A DNA stretch of 47,636 bases from a virus: the IMG/VR virus record IMGVR_UViG_3300048930_000447, positions 1 through 47,636 of that record, one strand, 5' to 3'. Every line of letters starts with the position of its first letter. Position 1 is the stretch's first letter. The notes under the pieces were generated by a model. That model was not told the DNA's origin, made no database searches, and worked only from the letters and a program-made list of their open reading frames with translations. Shown here in pieces: positions 2,251-45,003 of this stretch. The position numbers and the translations under genes were made by a program.

Positions 2251-2888
2251 TCGATCGCCTCCAGTTCCTCGGCCGTGGCAGCCGCCTCGATTGCGTCGCG
2301 CAGGGCGCGCGCGATGGTGTGCGCCGTGGCCACGTGCGTGCCGAGCGCCAGGCCTACCGCGATCATGTCGGCGCCGCTCAGCGTGCGCACGGCGTTGTCC
2401 TGCAGCGTCCAGTCGATGGTGAAGGGCTGCTCCGCGGCTGCCGCGAGCACGGCCATCTGCACGGCGCCGATGATCCGCGCCTGCGACATCTCATCGCTGT
2501 CGAAGGCCGATCCATCCCAGGCGAAGCCGCCGAACTCGACCGCGGCGCGCTGCACCTTCACCTGCGACCAGCGCGCGATCTTCAGCGCGGCCAACGTCGG
2601 CTGCGACACCCAGCGCTCGGTGACGTCGTCCCACGCCCAGGCCTGCATGTCGTCGTCGGCAGGGGCTGTCGGCTGGTATGCAACAACCTCGGCAGCCTCG
2701 GCATCCCAACGGCGCGACAGCGGATCGTGCCGGCCCTCCACGGCCGTGCAGCCGTCCGGGGTGTTCAGCGCCAGGAACTCATCGCTGCCGGCGTAGACGC
2801 GGCCGATGAACAGGCCTTGCGCGTCGGCGAAGCTCCAGGCCGAGATGCGCGGCGCGTGCGGCGCGGCGGCTTCGAATTCGTCGCTCAT
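2241..2888 (-). CDS. DUF4376-type tail-associated protein
   Basis: A 215-residue protein. The C-terminal part (about residues 130-205) matches my memory of the DUF4376 domain found in tail-fibre or fibre-assembly proteins, with a W at WTLQDNAVRTLSGADM followed by a helical THVATAHTIARALRDAIEAA. The N-terminal half resembles tail-fibre-assembly proteins (GRVYAGSDEFLALNTPDG). The start at 2888 overlaps the stop of the J-like gene (ATGA). Its place right after J suits a fibre or tip accessory protein, either structural or chaperone. Confidence 0.7.
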   Translation of the reverse strand: MSDEFEAAAPHAPRISAWSFADAQGLFIGRVYAGSDEFLALNTPDGCTAVEGRHDPLSRRWDAEAAEVVAYQPTAPADDDMQAWAWDDVTERWVSQPTLAALKIARWSQVKVQRAAVEFGGFAWDGSAFDSDEMSQARIIGAVQMAVLAAAAEQPFTIDWTLQDNAVRTLSGADMIAVGLALGTHVATAHTIARALRDAIEAAATAEELEAIEWP

Positions 2889-5800
2889 ACCTTCATCTCC
2901 ACGCCGCTGATCTCGCCGGTGAACGCCGCGGCCGTCAGGCAGGCATTCGACGAGCCCGCGGCGTCGGTCATCGTCATGGACACGCGCAGCCGCACCTTGT
3001 ACGTGCCGGCGGCCACGGAATCGAACACCAGCGAGCCGCTGCAATCCAGCACCGTCGATGTGCCGGTGCTCTCGATCAGCGCCGTGTCGCTGCCGAAGAA
3101 CCCGGACTCGTCCATCACCGTGCTGTCGCTGGTGCGCACCAGCTGCAGCTTCATGCTTGGCCGGCCGAAGCGCGGCGAGGTGGTGTTCAGCGTCAACGAC
3201 ACGCGGCCAGTGACCGAGCCGAACACCCGCCCGCTGCCGACGGTGGCCAGCGTGGGCCCGTCGACATCGGCATTGCTGAAGCTGGACACGGCCGAGCCGC
3301 TGTACAGCGAGGCCGACGCCGAGCTTACCTGCAGCGGGTTGCTGACCGCGCCGACCACGATCTGCGGCGTGTCCACCGAGCGGGACAGAATGTCGTCCTC
3401 GCGCGGCGCGTGCCCGGTCAGCACGGTGCCGGGCTGGAACTGCGCGGCGTCGATGTCCATGGTGGCCAGCGTCACCGAGCCGTTGTCTTCCATCCAGATG
3501 TAGGCGCGGGCATAGGTGGCTGTGGCTGGGGCCTCGGCGCTGAGCGATGCTCGAGCAAGAGCCGCGGTCGGCGTGAACTGCGACGACGGCGAGCTTCCCA
3601 CGTTGGCGTTGCTGGCGTCGTACCAGTCGATGTACAGCCGCAGCTTCGGCGTGCCGGTCGGGTTGCCGACCCAGGCCGACAGCACATAGGGCTGTCCCGC
3701 GACCACGTCGACGCGCTGGTAAGCGCCCACGCGGTCGCCGGTGCCGGTTCCGAGCCCGGCCCCGCTGAAGCGCTGCTTGTAGGTGCCGTGGATGGCGCCG
3801 CTGCCAACGCGCGAATAGGTGATCGTGCCGGTGGTGCCGGCGTTGTACGCGGTCCAGTCGTCGGCCAGGCCGTCGGCGTCGATGTCGGCCTCGAAGCTGC
3901 TGTTGCGCAGCAGGTTGCCGCCTGCGTCGACGGTCAGCGCGCCGTCCACCGTGTGCGAGAACCACGCCCACGGCCCAGCCTGTCCCAGGCCGTTGACCGC
4001 GCGCACGGCCATCGTCAGGATGTCGCCGTGGTTCGGGCCGACGATGTAGGCGCTGGTGCTGTCGCCGGGCACGCTCACCAGCTCGTAGGGGCCGCCGGGC
4101 CGGCGCCAGATGATCTCGATCCTGCCGGAGCCGTCGGTGACGTAGGCATCGGCCACCGCATTCCAGGACACCAGCACGCGTGGCACGATGGCGCTGCCTG
4201 TGCTGTGCAGCACCGTGGTGGCGTCGCTCAGCGCCGCGATGCCCGTCAGGGCGGCCACCACCCAGGGGTTGGGGAGCGCTGTGTTTGGCGCCGGGTCGGC
4301 GGTTGCCGCGTCAGCCAGGTCATACACCGCGGCGGCATCCTCCTGCAGCGTCAGGATCACCGCAGACCGCAGGCTGAACTGCCAGTCGGTGACGCGGAAC
4401 GTCTTGCTGCTAAAGCCGTACTCGGCGCTAGTGACGGTGACGCGGTCGCCCACCTGCAGCGGCCAGGCGCGTAGCTTCGCCGGGTAGCGGATCACCAGGC
4501 CGTCGCGGTTGCGCTCGGTGAAGATGCGCGCCAGGTTGCGCGCGCGCGCCTTGCTGTCGGTCCACGGCAGCGCCACATCGGACCACAGCTCCTCGCCGTC
4601 GGCGGTGACGAACGCGCTGTTCTGGTACGGGTCGAAGTCGCTGGGTGTGCCGCGGCCGGCGGCGATGTACTGGCCGCGCAGGCTGTTGAACAGCTGGTCC
4701 TGCGGCGCGCCGGCCTGCACGATCTCGATCTGGCCGTGCAGGTCATCGTCGGTCAGCGTCATCACGCTGGCGGTCCACGCGCCTGCCAGGATGCCCCAGG
4801 ACGCACCGTAGACGGCATAGCCGGCCATCGACTCGCACAGATCCTCGAGCACGCCCTCGCGCCCGCTATCGGCCACGAAGGCGCCATGCGCGGTGTAGGT
4901 GGCGTAGTCGTACCAGGTGCCGGTGTGTGTGCCGCTGCCCGCGGTGGTGATGTTGATCGCCGTCCCGGCCTTGGCATTGGCCAGGCTGGTGGCGAACTTG
5001 AACACCGTGCGGTCCGCGGTTTCGATCACGTAGTAGGTGGTCGCGGTCGCCAGCGGCGCCGGCAGCGTGCCGGTGGTCGTGAAGCGCACGCCGTCGCCGG
5101 TGGTCCACCAGCGCTCGCTGGCGAAGGTGAGCTGGTCGGTGGTGGTGCCGGCGGTGAACGTGGCGGCGTGCGCCTGCGAGGCGGCCAGGCTGCGCGCGTC
5201 GCAGGCATTGGCGGCCGCGTTGCACAGCGCGGTGTCAATCTCGGCCGCCGCCGCCTCAAAGCCCCACGGCTGGGTGAGGAAGTCGCGGATGATCAGCGCG
5301 TTGTTGCTGCTGTAGCCGGTGGTCGACGTGCGCGTGTCGAAGATGGGCTTGCCGCTCCCCAGCATGGTGATCTGCGGCGGCCCGCCCTGGAAACGCGTTT
5401 CCTCCAGGTCCAGCGTCACCACGCTGTAGGCCAGGCCGCGCAGCCGGTGGTTGGCGGTCCACTGCGACGGCACCACACTGTTCAGGTAGGTGTCGACGGT
5501 CTGCGATGCCGTGCCGAGGTGGTGCGAGGCGCGCACCCGGGCGTCGCTGGTGGCCACGGTGTAGTTCACCGTCGCGCCCACCGGGCCGCTGATGCGCGTA
5601 TTGCCAAGGCTGAGCGTCACCGAAACGCCGCTATAGACGGCGTCCACCCCGGCGCCGTCGGTGGTGTAGCTGCTGAGCACGCTGACCACCGCCACCGGTA
5701 CGTCGACATAGCCGCCGCCGCCGATGGTCGCAATGCGCGACGCCGGCTTGCTGGCCGCGTAGAACTCGCCGCCGGTAGTCCAGCCGTTGCCATCAAGGGT

Positions 5801-6292
5801 GCCGAGCGGGATGCCGTCGATGAACAGCTCATGAATCGCGGTCAGCTCGTGCGCGGCCCACACGATGACCAGGTGCTTGTAGGCGTCGGCCTTGGTGTAG
5901 CTGCTGCCGTTGTCTCGCGTGCCGGTCTTGTCGCTGGTGAAGATGGCGACGATGTCGCCGCCGACGGGCCCGGGGCGGCCGTAGATCACGCGCCACGGCG
6001 GGTTGGCCTGCAGCAGCGTGACGTTGCGGTCCTGCAGGCTCGCGTTGTACTCGGCGCGCTGGCGGGCAGCGGCATTGCGCGCCTTGCGGCGGCCGGCGGC
6101 GGCGCCGTAGACGTTCGCGGCGATGACGCCGATGGTCAGGCCGTAGGTGGCGACGATGCTGGCCACCGTCGCCACGGCGCCGGCCACGGCCGCGCTGCCG
6201 GTGACGGCCAGGATGCTGGCGAAGATGCTGATCGGGTCGGCATGCGCCAGCGCCGGGGCCAGCAGCAGGGCGAGCGCGAGCGCGGCCCTCAC
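2885..6292 (-). CDS. Tail tip / host-specificity protein J-like
   Basis: A 1135-residue protein and the largest tail gene. Around residues 80-110 the sequence LLQANPPWRVIYGRPGPVGG is typical of tail-tip (gpJ) attachment proteins. Fibronectin-like and carbohydrate-binding-like segments follow (LLRNSSFEADIDADGLADDW), with a beta-rich C-terminus. The first 60 residues are very hydrophobic: MRAALALALLLAPALAHA looks like a Sec signal with an AHA cleavage site, followed by AVAGAVATVASIVATYGL. The GTG start at 6292 overlaps the preceding stop (GTGA). An in-frame ATG at 6340 would lie inside the previous gene and is less likely. It would contact the receptor at the tail tip. Confidence 0.85.
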   Translation of the reverse strand: MRAALALALLLAPALAHADPISIFASILAVTGSAAVAGAVATVASIVATYGLTIGVIAANVYGAAAGRRKARNAAARQRAEYNASLQDRNVTLLQANPPWRVIYGRPGPVGGDIVAIFTSDKTGTRDNGSSYTKADAYKHLVIVWAAHELTAIHELFIDGIPLGTLDGNGWTTGGEFYAASKPASRIATIGGGGYVDVPVAVVSVLSSYTTDGAGVDAVYSGVSVTLSLGNTRISGPVGATVNYTVATSDARVRASHHLGTASQTVDTYLNSVVPSQWTANHRLRGLAYSVVTLDLEETRFQGGPPQITMLGSGKPIFDTRTSTTGYSSNNALIIRDFLTQPWGFEAAAAEIDTALCNAAANACDARSLAASQAHAATFTAGTTTDQLTFASERWWTTGDGVRFTTTGTLPAPLATATTYYVIETADRTVFKFATSLANAKAGTAINITTAGSGTHTGTWYDYATYTAHGAFVADSGREGVLEDLCESMAGYAVYGASWGILAGAWTASVMTLTDDDLHGQIEIVQAGAPQDQLFNSLRGQYIAAGRGTPSDFDPYQNSAFVTADGEELWSDVALPWTDSKARARNLARIFTERNRDGLVIRYPAKLRAWPLQVGDRVTVTSAEYGFSSKTFRVTDWQFSLRSAVILTLQEDAAAVYDLADAATADPAPNTALPNPWVVAALTGIAALSDATTVLHSTGSAIVPRVLVSWNAVADAYVTDGSGRIEIIWRRPGGPYELVSVPGDSTSAYIVGPNHGDILTMAVRAVNGLGQAGPWAWFSHTVDGALTVDAGGNLLRNSSFEADIDADGLADDWTAYNAGTTGTITYSRVGSGAIHGTYKQRFSGAGLGTGTGDRVGAYQRVDVVAGQPYVLSAWVGNPTGTPKLRLYIDWYDASNANVGSSPSSQFTPTAALARASLSAEAPATATYARAYIWMEDNGSVTLATMDIDAAQFQPGTVLTGHAPREDDILSRSVDTPQIVVGAVSNPLQVSSASASLYSGSAVSSFSNADVDGPTLATVGSGRVFGSVTGRVSLTLNTTSPRFGRPSMKLQLVRTSDSTVMDESGFFGSDTALIESTGTSTVLDCSGSLVFDSVAAGTYKVRLRVSMTMTDAAGSSNACLTAAAFTGEISGVEMKV

Positions 6293-6687
6293 GGCTCGAC
6301 CCGCCACGCGCACGCCGCGCGCTCCATCGGCACATGGCACAGCCCGGCCTCAGTCAGCACGGCCGCGGTGCGCCCGCAGCACACGCCGATGGCCTGCGCG
6401 TCCTCGTCGCTCAGCCCGACGATGTCGCCCACCTGCGCCAGCGCCGGCTCGATCGGCTCGCGGCGCAGCCACAGCGACCACACGCCGCGCAGCGTGCCAC
6501 CGATCTGCGCGATCAGTCGGTGCGCAGCGAGCCGGCTGGGCGTGCGCGGCAGGCCGAGCATCAGCCGCGCGCCGGTGGCGCGCTGCACCCAGCCGGCAGC
6601 GAAGGTGCAGCAGTTCCACCCGGCCCAGTCGAAGGCGCGCGCCTGTACCTCGGTCAGGTAGGCGTCGAGCATCGCGGCGCGGCTCAT
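6289..6687 (-). CDS. DUF6950 / NlpC-P60-like tail assembly protein (K position)
   Basis: A 132-residue protein with FDWAGWNCCTFAAGWV near the N-terminus, where a Cys in this setting resembles the catalytic Cys of NlpC/P60-like folds. A later GDIVGL and a His near the C-terminus (LCHVPMERA) could complete the site. It occupies the lambda K position between the minor tail protein and J. K-type proteins help build the tail tip and may act on peptidoglycan at infection. The ATGA start overlap at 6687 supports the chosen start. Confidence 0.65.
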   Translation of the reverse strand: MSRAAMLDAYLTEVQARAFDWAGWNCCTFAAGWVQRATGARLMLGLPRTPSRLAAHRLIAQIGGTLRGVWSLWLRREPIEPALAQVGDIVGLSDEDAQAIGVCCGRTAAVLTEAGLCHVPMERAACAWRVEP

Positions 6688-36295: not shown

Positions 36296-36329
36296 TCGAC
36301 CGTCCCTCGCCAGCCAAGGAGCAGCCATC

Positions 36330-36482
36330 ATGCCCTACACCGCCCACGTCACCCCGCGTGACGGCATCGTCAGACAGCACAGCCCGACGGCACCCGACCT
36401 GCACGCCGCGCACACGGCCGTGCAGCAACTCGCCAACCGCCGCTACGGCGCCGGCTTCACCTACAGCGTGAGGCAGGCATGA
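36330..36482 (+). CDS. 50-residue protein with YTAHVT N-terminus
   Basis: MPYTAHVTPRDGIVRQHSPT ends in TYSVRQA. A ribosome site AAGGAG lies 9 bases before the ATG. The N-terminus repeats that of the gene at 35539. Its stop overlaps the next start (ATGA). No function known. Confidence 0.6.
   Translation: MPYTAHVTPRDGIVRQHSPTAPDLHAAHTAVQQLANRRYGAGFTYSVRQA
36335..36352 (+). repeat. 18-bp direct repeat, right copy
   Basis: Identical to 35547-35564; it encodes the YTAHVT start of the 50-residue protein, just beyond the inverted membrane-protein gene. Confidence 0.85.
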
Positions 36483-36655
36483 GCTACAGCCCAGCCCACC
36501 TGCAACGCATGGCACGCCAGGCACTCGCGGCGCGCGCGCAGGGCGACCCTCGGTGGCTTCAGCTGGTGCTGACCCTCTCGTTGCGGCAGCACATCAGCCC
36601 CCGGCAGGTTGAGTTCGAGATCGAGCGCCTGGCGAACAGCGAGGTGCCGGCATGA
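36479..36655 (+). CDS. 58-residue helical protein upstream of DGR target 1
   Basis: MSYSPAHLQRMARQALAARA continues with QGDPRWLQLVLTLSLRQHIS and ends EFEIERLANSEVPA. It is joined to the 50-residue gene upstream and to DGR target 1 downstream by ATGA overlaps, so target 1 is translationally coupled to it. The composition is helical and amphipathic; no family recognised. Confidence 0.6.
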   Translation: MSYSPAHLQRMARQALAARAQGDPRWLQLVLTLSLRQHISPRQVEFEIERLANSEVPA

Positions 36656-37332
36656 GCACGGCGCACACCCCTGCCACCGCCGCCATCCAGCGCCGGCTCG
36701 AACGCTGGGAACTGCAGCACCTGCGCCTGCTAGCCGCCCAGCAGGCCGAGCAGATCGAAGAGCTGCAGCGCCGCGTGGCCTGGGCCGAAGATTGCGCCGA
36801 GCGCTGGCGCGACGACGCGCTCGACATGCAGGAGCAGTTGGCCGACAGCGCCGGCGGGCAGCCGGGCTTGACGATGGGCGGCCGGCTCGTGGTCCTCAAG
36901 CCGGAAGCAGACGCGGCCGCGAGCGTGCCCGCCATCGGCCAGCCCTGGCCAAGCATCGCCGGCAGCCTGTACGCCGGCATCGCAGTGGCCGAAGGCGATC
37001 AGCCTGATGGACACATCGTGCTGTTGCCCGACGAGCCGGCCAATCCGCTGTGCTGGCAAGACGCACTGAAGTGGGCGGAAGACCTGGGCCACGGGGCACA
37101 CGCCCCTATGCGGCACGAAAGCGCCCTGCTCTACGCAAACCTGCAAGGTCAGTTCGACCCGAGCGCTTGGTACTGGACCAGCACGGTGGCTGCCGGGGAT
37201 GGCTCGTACGCCTGGCGCCAGGACTTCTTCGACGGCAACCAGCTCAACCTCCACAAGAGCTATGAGGGCCGGGTCCGAGCCGTCCGCAGATTCGCGGTTC
37301 AGTCCTTCAATCCTTCAAGGCCAGCAGCATGA
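36652..37332 (+). CDS. DGR target protein 1, coiled coil plus C-type-lectin-like variable domain
   Basis: A 226-residue protein. Residues 1-65 are a coiled coil (LERWELQHLRLLAAQQAEQIEELQRRVAWAED). Residues about 105-215 form a DUF1566/C-type-lectin-like domain (HIVLLPDEPANPLCWQDALKWAEDLG ... SALLYANLQGQF ... WYWTSTV). The variable repeat covers residues 183-213 (GSYAWRQDFFDGNQLNLHKS then YEGRVRAVRR). Ten template adenines are substituted here relative to the template. No signal peptide is present. The coiled coil may multimerise it, unlike the two shorter paralogues. It lies 3.3 kb upstream of the other targets. Confidence 0.88.
   Translation: MSTAHTPATAAIQRRLERWELQHLRLLAAQQAEQIEELQRRVAWAEDCAERWRDDALDMQEQLADSAGGQPGLTMGGRLVVLKPEADAAASVPAIGQPWPSIAGSLYAGIAVAEGDQPDGHIVLLPDEPANPLCWQDALKWAEDLGHGAHAPMRHESALLYANLQGQFDPSAWYWTSTVAAGDGSYAWRQDFFDGNQLNLHKSYEGRVRAVRRFAVQSFNPSRPAA
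37200..37291 (+). repeat. DGR variable repeat VR1
   Basis: These 92 bases align without gaps to the template at 41955-42046. There are ten differences in the variable part, all at template A (for example AAC to CGC, GAC, TTC, CTC), plus the GT-for-TG swap near the 3' end. CAG codons and the AAG-AGC-TAT-GAG block are unchanged. A TCCTTCAATCCTTC element follows 11 bases later. Confidence 0.95.
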
Positions 37333-37363
37333 ACGATCTCAGCATCACCTCCAGGAGGCCGCA

Positions 37364-37696
37364 ATGAGCGCGGCCCTGCAGCGCCTCACCAAGTGGCGCA
37401 CCGTGTTCGCCGGCTGGCAGCTGGGCACGCGCGCCAAGGGAGACCCGGAGTCCGACGCCGTCAGGGACCACCGCGAGGTGACCATCCTGATGCGCAACGA
37501 GCTCAATGCGCTGGCCGGCCTGCTCATCGAAAAGGGCGTACTCACGGCCGAGGAGCACAAGCGCCGCCTGGACAGCGAGGCCGACTACCTGTCGGGCCAG
37601 TACGCCAAGAAGTTCCCAGGCTTCAAGGCCACCGACATCGGCATCGAGATGAACCCGGCAATCGCCGCGGACACCACGCGCGGGTGGCGGCCATGA
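37364..37696 (+). CDS. Small helical phage protein
   Basis: A 110-residue protein, MSAALQRLTKWRTVFAGWQL; a helical middle (ILMRNELNALAGLLIEKGVLTAEEHKRRLDSEADY) ends in GIEMNPAIAAD. A strong ribosome site CAGGAGG lies 6 bases before the ATG at 37364. A 12-codon mini-frame from 37329 overlapping the target 1 stop ends at this start. The end overlaps the lipoprotein gene (ATGA). Function unknown. Confidence 0.65.
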   Translation: MSAALQRLTKWRTVFAGWQLGTRAKGDPESDAVRDHREVTILMRNELNALAGLLIEKGVLTAEEHKRRLDSEADYLSGQYAKKFPGFKATDIGIEMNPAIAADTTRGWRP

Positions 37697-38235
37697 GCGC
37701 GCACCTCTTCGCCATCGAGCGTTGGGCTACGCGCGCACCGGCCATGCGCTGGCCGTTGGTGCTGCTGGCCCTGTTGCTGCTGGTCATGCTGGGCGGCTGC
37801 GGCGGCAGTGGCGCCCCCATTGCAGACGTCTACACCGGGCAATCCACCGCCCAGGCCGGCGACGCCGACACTGGCGCGGCCATTCTGGTGTTGCCGCTGC
37901 AGGGGCCGGCCCTCCAACTCGACCGGCCCGCGCAAATTCACGTTCGCTTGAAGGGCCACGTGCAGGTGTCGGCCCACTACAGCGCCAGCGGCACCGTCGC
38001 CATCGAGCTGGCGGCACCAGTGGCCACAGGCCCGAGCACCGTGCCCGTTGCACTCAGCCCGCAGGCAGCCACCACTGAACCCGTGGCCTACACCGCATGG
38101 CTGCAGCTTCCAGCCGGCACACACGCCCTGCAGGCGCTGCTGACGCTGCGCGCGCGCGATGCCCAGGCCGTGCCCACGGGGGCTCTGGCGCGCGCTGACG
38201 CTAGCGTGGCATGGCGCGTCGAGGTGCAACCGTGA
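37693..38235 (+). CDS. Lipoprotein in the rightward operon
   Basis: A 180-residue protein. A basic and hydrophobic leader (MRWPLVLLALLLLVMLGG) ends in lipobox LGGC with Cys36, followed by a beta-rich domain of Ser/Thr/Ala strands (VSAHYSASGTVAIELAAPV). Being an envelope protein in a putative early/lysogenic operon, it could change the host surface. ATGA overlap sets the start; a GTGA overlap links the next gene. Confidence 0.65.
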   Translation: MSAHLFAIERWATRAPAMRWPLVLLALLLLVMLGGCGGSGAPIADVYTGQSTAQAGDADTGAAILVLPLQGPALQLDRPAQIHVRLKGHVQVSAHYSASGTVAIELAAPVATGPSTVPVALSPQAATTEPVAYTAWLQLPAGTHALQALLTLRARDAQAVPTGALARADASVAWRVEVQP

Positions 38236-38783
38236 ACCCCCAGCCGCAGCGCCACCTGGTGCTGGCCTGGGCCAGCGGGCTTGCATCACGCTGGCCACAG
38301 ATCAACGCAGCAATCGACTCCGAACTACGCCACGACGCGTGCGCGCTGTCCGACCCCGGCACCGAATGCGTGCTCGGCCAGGTACTCGCCGCGCCCACGC
38401 GCCACCACACCGGATACCCCACCCCTCAGGAGCAACGCATGTCCGAAGGCCACCACCTGCCAGCGGCGCTGACCCAACCCGGCGAGCTGCCGCCCGCCAT
38501 CCCCTTTCCTGCGCGCCCGGCCAACGCCCGCGCCATGGCGCCCAGCAAGGCGACGGTCGAGCGCTGGGCGCGCCAGGCCCGGCAAATCGAAGACGCCCGC
38601 GCCGAAGGCCGGTCGCAAGGCCTGCAGATCGGCGACAAGCAGGGCTGGCGCCGCGGCGTCATCACCGGTGCCGTGTGCGCCGCCGTGCTCACCAGCCTGG
38701 GCTGGTCGGCGTACCTCAGCATCGCCGCGCCCGAGGTGGCGCCGCCTTCCGCCATGCGGCCCGCCGTGCCGGCCACCCTGTGA
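38232..38783 (+). CDS. Protein with one C-terminal membrane segment
   Basis: From the GTG at 38232 (GTGA overlap) the product is 183 residues; a second start at ATG 38439 with ribosome site CAGGAG gives 115 residues, MSEGHHLPAALTQPGELPPA. The C-terminal part has a helical KATVERWARQARQIEDARAE region and a membrane segment GVITGAVCAAVLTSLGWSAYL near residue 150-170. The first 69 residues have a coding-like composition, so these may be one gene or two fused in frame. Function unknown. Confidence 0.55.
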   Translation: MNPQPQRHLVLAWASGLASRWPQINAAIDSELRHDACALSDPGTECVLGQVLAAPTRHHTGYPTPQEQRMSEGHHLPAALTQPGELPPAIPFPARPANARAMAPSKATVERWARQARQIEDARAEGRSQGLQIGDKQGWRRGVITGAVCAAVLTSLGWSAYLSIAAPEVAPPSAMRPAVPATL

Positions 38784-39013
38784 TGCTGGCCACCGCGCAA
38801 CCTGTCGAGCGCATGCCCGTGCGCTTTGCCAGCGCCGACCTGTACCGCGCCTGCACGCTGTGCGACCACGGCCCCAGCCGCGGCGGCCCAGCCGGCAGCT
38901 GCACGCTCAACCCGCGGGACCCGGTGCCCATCAGCCTGGCGCGTCTGCGCGACGGCATCTGCGGCCCCGAGGCCGCGCACATGCGCGTCGGCGGATGGGA
39001 CTTCATCAGCTGA
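38783..39013 (+). CDS. Small cysteine-containing protein
   Basis: A 76-residue protein. RACTLCDHGPSRGGPAGSCT and GICGPEAAHMR carry four Cys in a spacing compatible with zinc binding. The start overlaps the previous stop by one base (TGATG). Similar in style to the Cys-rich proteins at 175 and 35539. Confidence 0.6.
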   Translation: MLATAQPVERMPVRFASADLYRACTLCDHGPSRGGPAGSCTLNPRDPVPISLARLRDGICGPEAAHMRVGGWDFIS

Positions 39014-39018
39014 CGGCC

Positions 39019-39240
39019 ATGAGCCGGCCGACACCGCCCACCGATGAGCAGCTGCGGCTGGCGTGGCGGCAGATCAGCCGGCCCAGCTGGCCCAGCACTC
39101 TGGAAGAGGCGCTGGAGAACCCGCTCTACCGCACCTGCCTCATCGGCATCGACCGCAACCTCAATCGCCGCGGCATGGACCGCCGGCCCGCGCCCAAGGC
39201 GCCGCCCTCGCTGCCACTGTTTGAAGGAATCGACCCATGA
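39019..39240 (+). CDS. Hypothetical 73-residue protein
   Basis: MSRPTPPTDEQLRLAWRQIS followed by RPSWPSTLEEALENPLYRTC and a Pro-rich end. Five bases separate it from the preceding gene, and its stop overlaps the next start (ATGA). Probably a DNA- or protein-interaction adaptor by size; no family recognised. Confidence 0.55.
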   Translation: MSRPTPPTDEQLRLAWRQISRPSWPSTLEEALENPLYRTCLIGIDRNLNRRGMDRRPAPKAPPSLPLFEGIDP

Positions 39241-39518
39241 GCCACAACGATCTGATGACCCCCATCCAGCTGGCTGAGCTGGCCCACCAGCTGGCCGACC
39301 GCGCCTGCATCAGCGACATCGAGGTCCACGCCCATGCGCAGACCGACGACCTGGGCCGCAAGTGGTACGACACGCGGCCGCTGTTCGACCCGAACGAGCA
39401 GCCCGACGACTTCATCGAGATGAACCTGCAGGCGCTGGCCTACGCGCACGAGCGCGGCCTGATCAGCCCGCACCCCGTGCACACGCACCTGGTGCGCATC
39501 GTCAAGGCCGGGGCATGA
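39237..39518 (+). CDS. Hypothetical 93-residue protein
   Basis: MSHNDLMTPIQLAELAHQLA; the body includes DIEVHAHAQTDDLGRKWYDT and a helical LQALAYAHERGLI. Acidic, soluble, chained by ATGA overlaps on both sides. No function known. Confidence 0.55.
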   Translation: MSHNDLMTPIQLAELAHQLADRACISDIEVHAHAQTDDLGRKWYDTRPLFDPNEQPDDFIEMNLQALAYAHERGLISPHPVHTHLVRIVKAGA

Positions 39519-39835
39519 CCGCGACCACCAGTTGGCCGCGCGAGGCCGAAGACCGTGTGAACTCACTGCTGGGTCAGGTGGCTGCCAAGGAGCTGGAGTG
39601 CCAACGCCTCCGGGAAGCGACCCGAGCTGGCCCCACCGGCACCGAGGCCCGCGTGTGCGCCGACATCGCCGCACGCCAGCAGCTGGGCCTGCGCAAGTAC
39701 GGCATCAGCGTCGAGGGCAACCCGCTGACGCTGCGCGAGTGGCTGCAGCACGCCTACGAGGAAACGCTCGACCAGGCCATCTACCTGCGGCGATCGATCG
39801 AGCAGATCGACCTCGAGCTGGGCAACGCGCCATGA
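39515..39835 (+). CDS. Conserved small phage protein with KYG..LTLREWLQHAYEE motif
   Basis: A 106-residue protein. Its second half, ARQQLGLRKYGISVEGNPLT followed by LREWLQHAYEETLDQAIYLR, is a recurring motif in short phage proteins of the early region (often linked to MazG-like or nucleotide-related neighbours). No catalytic residues are obvious. ATGA overlaps on both sides. Confidence 0.6.
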   Translation: MTATTSWPREAEDRVNSLLGQVAAKELECQRLREATRAGPTGTEARVCADIAARQQLGLRKYGISVEGNPLTLREWLQHAYEETLDQAIYLRRSIEQIDLELGNAP

Positions 39836-40326
39836 GCCGCCGCGCACGCGCGCGCTTCGACCGGCGCGTCATCCTCAACCCGGTGGCCGTGGCGATCGAG
39901 GGCGCGCAGAAGCTGTGCGTCAAGGACCGCAGCAACCTGCAGCGCATCGTCGACCTGGCCCTGCAGGCCTTCCGCACCGGCCACGACTGCGCCGCCCAGT
40001 GGCGCAACATGGCCGACGCCCTCAACACCGCCGAGTCGCTGGCCAGGGTCGGCATCGCCAGCGACGACGCCAGCCGCGACCGCATCGACGCCGCGCAGCG
40101 CGTGCTGGCCGACGTGCACCAGCGTCACGCCGAGCGCGGCAGCTGGACGCTGCGCGGGCCCGAGCTGCAGGCGCTTGACGACGGGCTGTGGGTCTTCCGC
40201 GTGCAGCTCGAGCACTGCAGCCTCGGCGAATTCGAGCGCGCCCGCCGCGACTGCACCGAGCGCATCCGCCAGGCGCGGGCCGGCAACGCGCCCGCCGGCG
40301 CGCGGCTGGTCGAAGGACACGCATGA
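39832..40326 (+). CDS. Hypothetical helical 164-residue protein
   Basis: Basic N-terminus MSRRARARFDRRVILNPVAV, then an all-helical body (LQRIVDLALQAFRTGHDCAAQWRNMADALN) and EFERARRDCTERIRQAR near the end. It ends in an ATGA overlap. The overall pattern resembles small helical accessory proteins of unknown role. Confidence 0.55.
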   Translation: MSRRARARFDRRVILNPVAVAIEGAQKLCVKDRSNLQRIVDLALQAFRTGHDCAAQWRNMADALNTAESLARVGIASDDASRDRIDAAQRVLADVHQRHAERGSWTLRGPELQALDDGLWVFRVQLEHCSLGEFERARRDCTERIRQARAGNAPAGARLVEGHA

Positions 40327-40571
40327 GCCACGACGACGATTCGCCCCGCAGCGCCACCGAGATCGGCGTGGGCCTGGCCCAGGCCTGCGCGCCCGCCTTC
40401 GCGGCCATGTCCATGACGCTCGACGACGCCGAGCGCATCGAGTTCCTTCGCGCCTTCCTCTGCACCTGCAGCGGCATGGTGCAGCAATCCGTCGGCCACG
40501 CCACCACCCGCGAGCTGTTCGAGTTCGTCGCGCAGCTGAAGCCTGTGGAGCCGCTGCAGCGCATGCAGTAG
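40323..40571 (+). CDS. Hypothetical 82-residue protein upstream of DGR target 2
   Basis: MSHDDDSPRSATEIGVGLAQ with a helical AERIEFLRAFLCTCSGMVQQ. It ends 54 bases before DGR target 2. Helical, with three cysteines (two in the CTC pair). Function unknown. Confidence 0.55.
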   Translation: MSHDDDSPRSATEIGVGLAQACAPAFAAMSMTLDDAERIEFLRAFLCTCSGMVQQSVGHATTRELFEFVAQLKPVEPLQRMQ

Positions 40572-40625
40572 CAGCACGCCCTTCATCCCAACCGGGCCGC
40601 AAGCCCACCACCAGGAGCACACCCC

Positions 40626-40997
40626 ATGCGATTTTCCGATCTGCCCGCCCTCGGGCAGCCCCTAGACGCCGGCCTGTTCGCCGGCATCACCACCACGCCC
40701 GACGGCAAGCACCACGCCGTGGTGCTGCTGCCCGACAAGCCCGATGCCAAGCTCACCTGGCAGAAGGCCGTGAACTGGGCCAAGAAGCTCGACGCCACGC
40801 TGCCGGCCCGCCCCGTGGCCGCGCTGCTGTTCGCCAACGCCAAGGACCAGTTCGAGCCCGAGTGGCACTGGACGTCGGAAGCCTTCGATGGCTCGTGCGC
40901 CTGGGTCCAGGACTTCGGCTACGGCTACCAGAGCTACGACCGCAAGAGCTATGAGGGCCGGGTCCGAGCCGTCCGCTTGATTCAACTCACCGCTTGA
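40626..40997 (+). CDS. DGR target protein 2, DUF1566/C-type-lectin-like
   Basis: A 123-residue protein that is essentially one variable-lectin domain: HHAVVLLPDKPDAKLTWQKAVN, then ALLFANAKDQFEPEWHWTSE and the variable part at residues 88-117 (GSCAWVQDFGYGYQSYDRKS then YEGRVRAVR). Twelve template adenines are substituted here. A ribosome site CAGGAG precedes the ATG. It is a paralogue of target 3, 25 bp upstream of it. No signal peptide or coiled coil, so it may assemble with another protein or act in the cytoplasm. Confidence 0.88.
   Translation: MRFSDLPALGQPLDAGLFAGITTTPDGKHHAVVLLPDKPDAKLTWQKAVNWAKKLDATLPARPVAALLFANAKDQFEPEWHWTSEAFDGSCAWVQDFGYGYQSYDRKSYEGRVRAVRLIQLTA
40889..40976 (+). repeat. 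DGR variable repeat VR2
   Basis: These 88 bases align to the template from its first base to GTCCGC without gaps. There are twelve adenine-position substitutions (for example TAC to TGC, AAC to GTC, GGC, TAC, AGC), none elsewhere in the variable part, plus the shared GT-for-TG swap. Identity stops at GTCCGC, four bases earlier than in VR1 and VR3. Confidence 0.95.
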
Positions 40998-41022
40998 TCC
41001 TTCAATCCTTCAGGAGCACACG

Positions 41023-41397
41023 ATGCGCACCATCACCGTCGCAGCCGCGACCATCGAACTGCAGGACGGCGAGCACTACGCCGGCCTGATCCTCAACGCC
41101 GACGGCACGCCCAGCCACCACCTGGTGCTGCGGCCCGAGGCCGATAAGCGCATGCCCTGGCAGGCCGCCGTCGAGCTGGCCAAGGACCAGGGCGGCACCC
41201 TGCCCACGCGGCAGGAGCAGGCGCTGCTGTTCGCCAACCTGAAGGACCAGTTCAAGGCCGCCTGGTACTGGTCCAACGAAGAGTATGAAGGCGATGGCTC
41301 GTACGCCTGGGGCCAGGGCTTCTACGACGGCAACCAGCTCGACGGCCGCAAGAGCTATGAGGGCCGGGTCCGAGCCGTCCGCAGATTGACCGCTTGA
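41023..41397 (+). CDS. DGR target protein 3, DUF1566/C-type-lectin-like
   Basis: A 124-residue protein similar in layout to target 2: HLVLRPEADKRMPWQAAVEL, PTRQEQALLFANLKDQFKAA, WYWSNEE, then the variable part at residues 91-121 (GSYAWGQGFYDGNQLDGRKS then YEGRVRAVRR). Twelve template adenines are substituted. A ribosome site CAGGAG lies 8 bases before the ATG. It ends 20 bp before the avd-like gene. Tandem with target 2, indicating local duplication of the target. Confidence 0.9.
   Translation: MRTITVAAATIELQDGEHYAGLILNADGTPSHHLVLRPEADKRMPWQAAVELAKDQGGTLPTRQEQALLFANLKDQFKAAWYWSNEEYEGDGSYAWGQGFYDGNQLDGRKSYEGRVRAVRRLTA
41295..41386 (+). repeat. DGR variable repeat VR3
   Basis: These 92 bases align to the whole template without gaps; twelve substitutions, all at A, plus the shared GT-for-TG swap. 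A TCCTTCAATCCTTC element follows 11 bases later, the same spacing as after VR1. Confidence 0.95.
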
Positions 41398-41417
41398 TCC
41401 TTCAATCCTTCTGAGCC

Positions 41418-41783
41418 ATGGCCCTGCACACCGACCTGCCGATCTACCGCACCGGCGTGAAGCTGCTCGCCCTTGCCATCAAGGTACAGCAGCAGATGCC
41501 GCGCGGCGTCAAGCGATCGCTGGGCGACAAGATCAGCACGCACATCACCGAGATGCTCGACCTCATGGCGATGGCCAACGCCACGCAGCATGCCGAGCGC
41601 GCAGCGCACATCGAAGGGCTGATGAAGCACCTGCGCGCCACCACGGTGCTGCTGCGCGTCAGCCATGACAGCCGCTTCGTGTCGCCCCAGCTGTGGGGCG
41701 AGTCGGTGCAGCTGCTCGACAGCATCGGCCGGCAGGGCGGGGGCTGGCTCAAGAGTGCAGCGAACAGGGCGCCTGCAGCATGA
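41418..41783 (+). CDS. avd: Accessory variability determinant (Avd-like)
   Basis: A 121-residue protein, close to the Bordetella phage Avd (128). The helical pattern (GVKLLALAIKVQQQMPRGVK ... DKISTHITEMLDLMAMANATQ ... AAHIEGLMKHLRATTVLLRV) fits the pentameric four-helix-bundle accessory protein that binds the reverse transcriptase and template RNA. It lies between target 3 and the template repeat, the usual DGR order. Its stop overlaps an ATG at 41780 in the reverse-transcriptase frame. Confidence 0.85.
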   Translation: MALHTDLPIYRTGVKLLALAIKVQQQMPRGVKRSLGDKISTHITEMLDLMAMANATQHAERAAHIEGLMKHLRATTVLLRVSHDSRFVSPQLWGESVQLLDSIGRQGGGWLKSAANRAPAA

Positions 41784-41954
41784 CGGTCAAGGCCCTCATG
41801 CCCGTGCGCAATTTGAATCTGGTCGTGCCGCTGGCCCACGAGGCCACCGCCATGCGCACCACGGACACCGCTGCCCACGTGCAGGACCGGTCCGGCGCAG
41901 TCGCCCCGCTGATCGGCGCAAGCCTTCGGAGCGGCGACGTAGATAGCACGACAG

Positions 41955-42046
41955 TGGCTCGTACGCCTGGAACCAGAACTTCAACAACGGCAACCAGAAC
42001 AACAACCACAAGAGCTATGAGGGCCGGTGCCGAGCCGTCCGCAGAT
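41955..42046 (+). repeat. DGR template repeat TR
   Basis: The 92-base donor for the three variable repeats. Read in the target frame it is GSYAWNQNFNNGNQNNNHKS then YEGRCRAVRR, with eight AAC codons. AAC can change at A to 15 amino acids without making a stop codon. It lies between avd and the reverse transcriptase and overlaps the first ten codons of the latter. The 171 bases between the avd stop and the TR (41784-41954) are probably part of the template RNA. Confidence 0.95.
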
Positions 42047-43138
42047 CCTGACCTGTTCCACCAGCTGGTGCTGGCCTACCTGGACTGCCGCCGCACCAAG
42101 CGCAACAGCGACAGCGCCCTGGCCTTCGAGGCGCGCCTCGAGGCCAACCTGGTCGACCTGCACGACCGCCTGGCCGACGGCAGCTACCGGCCCGGCCGCA
42201 GCATCTGCTTCGTCGTCCAGCAGCCCCGCGTGCGCGAGGTGTGGGCCGCCACCTTCGGCGACCGCGTGGTGCATCACCTGCTGTACAACCGCATCGCACC
42301 GCGCTTCATCGCGCGGTTCACGGCCGACAGCTGCGCCTGCATTCCCGGGCGCGGCACCCTGTACGCGGCGCGCCGCCTGGAACACCAGGTGCGCAGCGCC
42401 ACCGCCAACTGGACGCGGCCGGCGCACTACCTGAAGTGCGACCTGGCCAACTTCTTTGTGTCCATCAACAAGCGCGTGCTCTTCGAGCAGCTGGCGCGCC
42501 ACGTCACCGAGCCGTGGTGGCTGCGCCTGGCCGAGACCGTGCTGATGCACGACCCGCGCGCCGATGTCGAGATGCGCGGCCGCGCCGAGCTGCTGCAGCG
42601 CGTGCCACCGCACAAGAGCCTGTTCAACGCGCCGGCCCACAAGGGCCTGCCCATCGGCAACCTGAGCAGCCAGTTCTTCGCCAACGTGCTGTTGAACGAT
42701 CTGGACCAGCGCGTCAAGCACCGGCTGCAGGCGCCGCACTTCGTGCGCTACGTCGACGACTGCGTGCTGGTGCACGAGTCGCCCGACTGGTTGAACGCGG
42801 CACTGGCCGACATCAGCGCCTGGCTGCCGACGCAGCTGGACCTGCAGCTGAACCCGCGCAAGACCATCCTGCAGCCGGTGGACCGCGGCATCGACTTCGT
42901 CGGCCACGTGCTCAAGCCGCACTGGCGCCGCACGCGGCCCGGCACCGTGGCCCGCGCCGGCGACCGCATGCACCGCATGCCAGCTGATGACGTGCACCCG
43001 TCGGCCAACAGCTACTTCGGCCTGTTCCGCCAGGCCACCCACAGCCACGCCGACCGCGCGGCGCTCGCCAATGCCGTGAGGCGGCGCGGGCACTGCGTCA
43101 ACAGCGCCTTTACCAAGACCTTTCGCAAAGGAGCCTAA
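42017..43138 (+). CDS. DGR reverse transcriptase
   Basis: A 373-residue protein. Motif A is YLKCDLANFF (Asp142), the DGR-specific motif 4 is IGNLSSQ (residues 213-219; the usual RT form is QG) and the catalytic box is YVDD (245-248), followed by LNPRKTILQ and FVGHVLKP. It copies the template RNA into adenine-mutagenised cDNA. I start at ATG 42017, inside the TR. The same frame is open back to an ATG at 41780 that overlaps the avd stop, so a 79-residue longer form is possible. Three bases separate it from the ParB-like gene. Confidence 0.95.
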   Translation: MRAGAEPSADPDLFHQLVLAYLDCRRTKRNSDSALAFEARLEANLVDLHDRLADGSYRPGRSICFVVQQPRVREVWAATFGDRVVHHLLYNRIAPRFIARFTADSCACIPGRGTLYAARRLEHQVRSATANWTRPAHYLKCDLANFFVSINKRVLFEQLARHVTEPWWLRLAETVLMHDPRADVEMRGRAELLQRVPPHKSLFNAPAHKGLPIGNLSSQFFANVLLNDLDQRVKHRLQAPHFVRYVDDCVLVHESPDWLNAALADISAWLPTQLDLQLNPRKTILQPVDRGIDFVGHVLKPHWRRTRPGTVARAGDRMHRMPADDVHPSANSYFGLFRQATHSHADRAALANAVRRRGHCVNSAFTKTFRKGA

Positions 43139-43140
43139 CC

Positions 43141-45003
43141 ATGGACGCGATCACCATGCTGTCCGTCGACACGTTGCACGAATCGCCCTTCAACCCGCGC
43201 AAGATCTTCGACGACGCGCCCTTGCAGGAACTGGCCGCTGACATCAAGAGCGTCGGCCGCGTGCTGCAGCCGCTGCTGGTGCGCCCGCGCATCCCGCCGC
43301 TGTTCGGCAACGACCCTGAAGCCGCCGCTGGCCACGAGATCGTCTTCGGCCACCGACGCTACCGCGCCGCCATGCTGGCCGGGCTGGCCGAGGTGCCGTG
43401 CATGGTGCGCGCCATGGCCGACGACGAAGCCCGGCGCGCGCAGATCAGCGAGAACCTGCAGCGCACCGACGTGCACCCCATCGAAGAGGCCGAGGGCTAC
43501 CAGGCGCTGATAGACCAGGACGGCCAGACGGCCGACAGCGTCGCCGAGCAGTTCGGCAAGAGCCGCAGCTACGTGTACGGCCGGCTCAAGCTGCTGCAGG
43601 CCTGCCCCGAGATCCGCAAGGCCTGCCTGGCCGGCGAGGTAGGCGCTGAGGTGGCGCTGCTCATCGCGCGGCTGCGCACCTCCAAGCTTCAGGAGAAGGC
43701 GCTGGGGTACATCCGCGCCGACCACCGCGCCAAGCTCGACGACGGCGGCAAGGCGAGCTTTCGCACCATCCGCGACCTGCTGGCCGAGAAATTCACGCTC
43801 GACCTCAAGGGCGCGATGTTCGACGTGGCCGACGAGATGCTGCTTCCGCTGGCCGGTAACTGCATCACCTGCCCCAAGCGCAGCGCCAACGCCCCCGAAT
43901 ACGCTGACCTGGTGGAGAACACCACCACGCGCTGGGGCATGTCCAAGCCGGGCAGTGCAAACGCCTGCACCGACCCCGACTGCTGGGACGCCAAGAAGAA
44001 GGCGCACCTCAAGCGCGAGGCCGACAAGCTGGCCGGCGCCGGCAAGGTGGTGGTCGATGGCACCGCGGCACGCAACAGCATCAGCGCGCGCGGCGAGATC
44101 AAGGGCGCGTATGTGGCGCTGGCCGACGTGCAGGCTGCGCTGAAGCAGCAGTACGACAAGGCCAAGACGGCGTCCGCGATGGTCAAGGCCAAGCCCACGG
44201 TGGTGCTGATCCAGGACCCGCGCACCGGCAAGACCCACAAGGCCGTCAAGCGTACCGACCTGCAGGCCGCTGGCGTCAAGGTCACCGACGCCTCGGCGCA
44301 GGGCAGCGCGGCCGCCAGCGCTGCGCACGAGGCGCGCCGCAAAGCCGAGCGAGAGGCAGCCGAGGCGAAGGTCAAGCTCGAGTGCCAACTACGCCGGGCG
44401 GTGCTCAGCGACATCCGCGACCAGATTCTCGGCCGCGAGCGCGACGCCTTCGACCTGCAACTGGTGGCACAAGCCGCCTGGCGCGGCGTCGAGTGGCGCG
44501 CCCGCAACCTGATAGCCGAGCTGTGGGGCTTCAAGAGCGAGCACGAGCTCGACAAGCGCATCGGCCAGATGGACCTGCAGCAGCTCCCCCTGTTCGTCAT
44601 GGACTGCGCGATCGCGCCCGATTGCGTGGTGGAGTCCTACTCGCTCGACCGCAAGCCGACCACCCTGCTGCAGGCGGCCAAGCACTACGGCGTCGACGTG
44701 GACCAGGTACGCGCCGAGGTGGCGAAGAACGCTTCTACCCCTTCACCCGCTGCGCGGGCTGCAAACAAGGCGGCGCCGGCTGCGCGCGGCGTTCGGTACT
44801 GTTGCCCGGACACCGGCTCGACCTGGTCGGGCAAGGGGTTGCAGCCGGCGTGGTTGAAAGCCGCGCTGGCCAAGGGCCGCACCCTGGCCGACTTTGACCT
44901 CAAGGCCACGGCCGCCATGGCGGCCGAGAAACAGACCGACGACGCCGGCGTTGCCGGCGGGTGCGGCGCGCCTGTCGACGCGCTTGAGGAAACCGAAGCA
45001 TGA
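43141..45003 (+). CDS. ParB-like protein with C-terminal H-NS-type domain
   Basis: A 620-residue protein. The N-terminal ParB/RepB/Spo0J domain (LHESPFNPRKIF, HEIVFGHRRYRAAMLAGLAE, RRAQISENLQRTDVHPIEEA, then a helix-turn-helix TADSVAEQFGKSRSYVYGRL) is followed by a Cys-containing middle (CITCPKRS, ACTDPDCWD) and a long Lys/Ala-rich helix. Residues about 550-586 (VRYCCPDTGSTWSGKGLQ followed by PAWLKAALAKGRTLADF) match the H-NS C-terminal DNA-binding signature. It may bind or bridge phage or host DNA. It follows the reverse transcriptase at three bases. Confidence 0.85.
   Translation: MDAITMLSVDTLHESPFNPRKIFDDAPLQELAADIKSVGRVLQPLLVRPRIPPLFGNDPEAAAGHEIVFGHRRYRAAMLAGLAEVPCMVRAMADDEARRAQISENLQRTDVHPIEEAEGYQALIDQDGQTADSVAEQFGKSRSYVYGRLKLLQACPEIRKACLAGEVGAEVALLIARLRTSKLQEKALGYIRADHRAKLDDGGKASFRTIRDLLAEKFTLDLKGAMFDVADEMLLPLAGNCITCPKRSANAPEYADLVENTTTRWGMSKPGSANACTDPDCWDAKKKAHLKREADKLAGAGKVVVDGTAARNSISARGEIKGAYVALADVQAALKQQYDKAKTASAMVKAKPTVVLIQDPRTGKTHKAVKRTDLQAAGVKVTDASAQGSAAASAAHEARRKAEREAAEAKVKLECQLRRAVLSDIRDQILGRERDAFDLQLVAQAAWRGVEWRARNLIAELWGFKSEHELDKRIGQMDLQQLPLFVMDCAIAPDCVVESYSLDRKPTTLLQAAKHYGVDVDQVRAEVAKNASTPSPAARAANKAAPAARGVRYCCPDTGSTWSGKGLQPAWLKAALAKGRTLADFDLKATAAMAAEKQTDDAGVAGGCGAPVDALEETEA

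Follow-up and report, generated by a model that had tools for sequence, protein, structure and literature searches.

A probably intact phage diversity-generating retroelement whose lineage appears to spare template adenines followed by guanine

Judged from its sequence, the element described here is a diversity-generating retroelement (DGR) with all of its expected genes intact. It lies in the window, the whole 47,636-nt stretch that we analysed, a 47.6 kb IMG/VR record with phage capsid, portal, terminase, tape-measure and tail-fibre genes. The best explanation of the locus, to which we assign a probability of about 0.85, is an intact phage DGR with an RT-15 RNA beside its template and a reverse transcriptase (RT) that spares adenines followed by G (AG adenines). 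A transcript carrying the RT-15 RNA and the template would be copied by the RT together with the accessory protein Avd. On meeting a template A the RT would misinsert, except where the neighbouring base on the 3' side, copied just before, is G. The mutated cDNA would replace the 3' ends of three C-type-lectin genes.

Organization of the locus

Three Lcl_C-like targets and Avd lie upstream of the template repeat (TR) and the RT downstream, with the following features.

36652..37332, + strand: target 1, 226 aa, an N-terminal extension (phrog_6525) and an Lcl_C-like C-terminal domain
37200..37291, + strand: variable repeat VR1, 10 A-only changes
40626..40997, + strand: target 2, 123 aa, Lcl_C-like
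40889..40976, + strand: variable repeat VR2, 12 A-only changes
41023..41397, + strand: target 3, 124 aa, Lcl_C-like, predicted C-type lectin fold
41295..41386, + strand: variable repeat VR3, 12 A-only changes
41418..41783, + strand: Avd accessory protein, 121 aa, phrog_3206 at 3.3e-22
41767..41958, + strand: RT-15 RNA (RF03018), overlapping the end of Avd and, by 4 nt, the start of TR, 173.8 bits, E 4e-43
41955..42046, + strand: TR, with changed adenines at 41963-42008 and a homing (IMH-like) region as its 3' part
41971..42009, + strand: core variable zone of eight AAC codons, two fixed CAG and one CAC
42017..43138, + strand: DGR RT, 373 aa counted from an ATG inside TR, with YVDD and LPIGNLSSQ
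42028..42029, + strand: TG in TR, GT in all three VRs, the sole non-A difference up to 42042

The four TR/VR copies are the only ones in the record. The locus combines an A-confined TR/VR pair, a DGR-type RT adjoining TR, Avd, and a VR at the 3' end of a target with a C-type lectin fold. The RT scored 62 bits against RVT_1 (cut-off 29.6), matched phrog_1423 and BPP-1 Brt, and carried YVDD and the SQ motif within LPIGNLSSQ. Avd was supported by PHROGs, while its Pfam and NCBIfam matches (bAvd, DivGenRetAVD) fell under the curated cut-offs. The targets likewise matched Lcl_C (PF07603) at 24.5-27.8 bits, below the Pfam gathering score of 34.9. The predicted structure of target 3 (pLDDT 95.3) matched the C-terminal domain of Legionella Lcl, 8q4e (Foldseek E 1.7e-5; VIA Z 13.7, rmsd 4.2 over 114 residues), as well as many C-type lectins, so that PHROGs and the modelled fold agree on a putative Lcl_C-like/C-type lectin assignment despite the sub-threshold Pfam scores.

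The targets (36652-41397) were small stand-alone lectin-fold proteins located away from the tail genes (2885-6340, minus strand), and the tail fibre gene contained no VR. The gene 3' of the RT (43141-45003) joined ParB_N and HTH_ParB domains to an H-NS-type C-terminal domain.

Substitutions between the template and its copies

Alignment of TR 41955-42027 with VR1, VR2 and VR3 was ungapped and contained 10, 12 and 12 substitutions, all 34 of them at template adenines. The 48 non-A columns were unchanged in all three copies (0 substitutions in 144 cells), and with 25 of 73 columns being A, the chance of 34/34 falling on A at random over columns is about 10^-16. The original prediction had claimed exactly this, 34 A-only changes with no gap and no change at C, G or T before the homing region, and the alignment bears it out. 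The eight AAC codons, which it had named as the main sites, indeed held 31 of the 34 changes, with two more in CAC and one in TAC. Within AAC the first A was changed in 20/24 cells and the second in 11/24 (p 0.015), a bias with which the lineage agrees (69% for A before A and 47% for A before C).

Ten of the 25 adenines in TR 41955-42027 never changed. Both CAG codons kept their A in every copy, as the prediction had also noticed, and the five adenines preceding G (in two CAG, AAG, AGC and GAG) were changed in 0/15 cells compared with 34/60 for the remaining adenines (p 5e-5).

The three copies are differently mutated, so at least three homing events took place. The absence of non-A change in the 144 cells fits overwriting that was recent relative to background mutation. 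Of the earlier reading of the pattern as recent, repeated retrohoming by an intact system, the retrohoming, its repetition and the intact genes hold, and the recency fits only as a statement relative to background mutation, taken from one consensus sequence. We infer that the DGR may be active at present.

AG sparing across related systems

Relatives of the DGR were found at 451 viral and 112 genomic loci. TR/VR pairs were collected with an A-tolerant finder; a check on BPP-1 gave back the TR and VR of the annotation, and each of the 17 changes between them was at A. The sample comprised 159 distinct window-type systems with 350 VRs (two of the 159 belong to the nearest other group), and the comparison sample 112 systems from five other RT groups. 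Reading frames were set by a motif anchor, choice of the longest open frame being erroneous in GC-rich loci. The A-only pattern recurred in these 159 systems and 350 VRs. In the core zone of these systems, A before G was changed in 4/627 cells compared with 3764/6727 for other adenines, for which the rate by 3' neighbour was 69% before A, 47% before C and 44% before T. A held-out set of only 4 systems gave 1/18 changed for AG and 49/74 for AA.

The original prediction had offered two causes for the fixed CAG adenines, a structural need for Gln or a positional bias of the enzyme. Adenines within 5 nt of AG sites changed at 56%, compared with 3% for AG itself, so the sparing is not due to position. 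An enzyme effect is nonetheless favoured, one set by the sequence context of the A (a following G), and the need for Gln plays a part only. Taken as the entire cause, the latter would mean that CAG adenines mutate normally and that copies without the glutamines misfold and are purged, which we consider unlikely. The target alignment shows almost no variation at the Gln of template column 2, which 110/114 systems write as CAG, as such purging would have it. ATG at column -5, the first Gln site, was changed in 5/34 cells compared with 9/16 at the neighbouring column -6 (p 0.005), and some protein selection thus acts on top of the enzyme effect. Lysine AAG also retains even its first A (changed in 9/212), a near fixation that the AG rule alone leaves unexplained. 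Against selection as the whole cause, AG adenines were spared at every codon position, and at fourfold-degenerate third positions A before G changed in 0/45 cells compared with 30/110 for other adenines (p 1e-5); the synonymous AG sites are not independent, since 19 of 21 come from one column (-12), mostly in one clade. Codon choice tells against it too: fixed residues elsewhere in TR are written with A-free codons, so that a CAG with a mutable A would be a wasteful choice. With four or five mutable sites of this kind, most homing products would be expected to be lost. Glutamine was written CAG 243 times and CAA once in the templates, whereas the RT genes had a CAG:CAA ratio of 2037:484. Such a preference would be expected if templates rely on CAG to encode a Gln that stays fixed.

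Most likely, the RT of this lineage skips AG adenines according to context and not position, a property that we infer from the substitution pattern, synonymous sites included. In other RT lineages (L086, L092-L158, L170-L249) AG adenines do change, in 22/77 cells and from A to G in 22/22.

Homing region

At 42028-42029, inside the homing region, the template has TG where VR1, VR2 and VR3 have GT, giving two non-A differences, and similarity between TR and the VRs continues beyond 42029 to 42042 (VR2) or 42046 (VR1, VR3). This difference was peculiar to the phage and occurred in none of the relatives examined; in the closest, L250 (89% RT identity), TR and VRs have the same letters at the site. 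Either the template was altered after the last homing, or the site lies 3' of the copied tract.

The first option bears on whether the DGR is decayed or dormant and its copies old, in that no copy holds the present template letters and homing could have stopped since the template changed. We think decay improbable, given that the RT, Avd, RNA and targets are all intact and that no non-A cell has changed, and the two letters may fall outside the copied tract altogether. The copies could, at the extreme, be ordinary paralogous repeats diverged by point mutation, with adenines struck by chance or by a general mutator; the three targets are indeed paralogues with similarity beyond the VR, but this is scarcely credible when every change sits at an A of a template outside the targets, with none at non-A columns, when RT, Avd and RT-15 adjoin that template, and when 159 related systems show the same pattern.

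A low-GC, TTHA-rich tract (CCTTCAATCCTTC) followed every VR (37292-37325, 40977-41015 and 41387-41415). TTHA occurred 2.0 times per 30 nt after window-type VRs, compared with 0.56 in shuffled sequence and 0.2 in other lineages. A search of the 70 nt that follow each VR for a GC-rich GRNA hairpin found no perfect stem of at least 7 bp with a 3-5 nt loop. Other DGR lineages had GRNA-loop hairpins where the window lineage has the TTHA tract.

RT-15 RNA and the start of the RT

RT-15 occupies the interval between Avd and TR, its end coinciding with the start of TR, and its match covers the full model at more than the Rfam gathering score of 82. Its presence rests on the Rfam model, the minimum-energy fold of 41784-41962 being no better than shuffles (z 1.3). 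The same RNA was present in 13/13 window-type relatives tested, where it again stopped as TR began. In five BPP-type loci its place was taken by Phage_DGR (RF03022), and neither RNA occurred in the other groups tested; in the window, Phage_DGR was not found in 36300-43300, even at E 1.

We also ran the reverse test, searching by RT-15 alone in 611 genome searches, of which 12 genomes were chosen for carrying the RT and the rest drawn evenly from one genus and one order. All 41 matches above the cut-off precede a window-type RT. In the 3 kb examined at each locus, 39 of these 41 had an A-specific TR/VR pair, with TR beginning -3 to 0 nt from the RT-15 end. Six sub-threshold matches had neither a window-type RT nor a TR/VR pair. 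RT-15 would take part in template recognition or priming.

The true start of the RT is uncertain because its frame is open upstream of the ATG at 42017, with further ATGs at 41852 and 41798, and the start codon inside TR is absent in several relatives. The open frame (41693-42046) spans both TR and the RT-15 RNA, as it does in 101/159 relatives, and TR read in it would be Thr-rich. It carries no codon signature over TR and RT-15. We considered whether the stretch between Avd and TR is merely an N-terminal extension of the RT, and rejected this: substitutions by codon position were 1858/2001/2065, with no excess at third positions and 31% synonymous, unlike the RT body, and the stretch is RT-15 RNA, which may nevertheless be translated. 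A second RNA element in the 5' coding region of the RT was likewise rejected. Third positions were frozen only in codons 1-12 (7% compared with about 45% later), which is the TR overlap, and so no second element is seen 3' of TR. In Vibrio phage VP58.5 (L089:31-1308) and Aeromonas phage phiARM81mr (L091:13-1299), the RT gene as annotated contains all of TR, in the target frame (NWNNG...).

Comparison with known systems

As a system the DGR is ordinary, since relatives are common (more than 450 viral loci, and the annotated phage Magia). Burkholderia phage Magia (NC_070954) has Avd, RT and TR/VR, with lectin-fold proteins annotated as possible DGR targets, and its TR, three VRs and RT-15 occur in the same order. 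It differs in that identity is only 68% for DNA and 63% for the RT, and in that its homing region shows no disagreement between TR and VRs. The Bacteroides uniformis phage DGRs share DUF1566 (Lcl_C) targets and Avd, and a small gene ahead of the RT has been described as holding their TR (PMC8143477). Their RT, however, is about 37% identical, and RT-15 was not found in two viral relatives tested.

The archetypal DGR of Bordetella phage BPP-1 resembles ours in its A-only changes, Avd, C-type-lectin target and RT (29.6% identity). It differs in having a TR separate from the RT with Phage_DGR RNA (RF03022) 3' of TR, and a GRNA hairpin after the VR has been reported as required there (PMC3240598). 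AG adenines in its lineage do change, from A to G. For the BPP-1 enzyme, bRT, the error profile depends above all on the base at the 3' side of the template A, which supports a rule of context, and G misinsertion in NAG was put at only 0.08%; as far as we know, that error map does not describe NAG as spared overall (PMC12875486), whereas the window lineage hardly changes AG.

The Rfam entry presents RT-15 solely as an RNA whose name comes from reverse transcriptases, and here it is tied to a DGR TR. In the open-access literature we found no earlier report of this link, nor of AG sparing in DGRs.

Implications

The DGR is real and probably intact, a known kind of system whose lineage looks like a variant form. 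We lean towards a lineage with machinery of its own, comprising an AG-blind RT, fixed residues written through CAG, RT-15 as a structured partner of the template RNA 5' of TR, an RT frame that starts within or ahead of TR and so leaves no room for a 3' spacer, and, in place of the hairpin that follows the VR, a tract rich in TTHA. In that case priming and target recognition would be unlike those of BPP-1. Few known systems diversify chosen proteins as fast as DGRs do, and laboratory tools based on them are being built. The AG context rule, if it does reflect the RT itself, identifies the template codons that will not change. The tie of RT-15 to DGR templates gives an orphan RNA family a probable role, and a structured RNA placed 5' instead of 3' of the template raises the question of how cDNA synthesis is primed.
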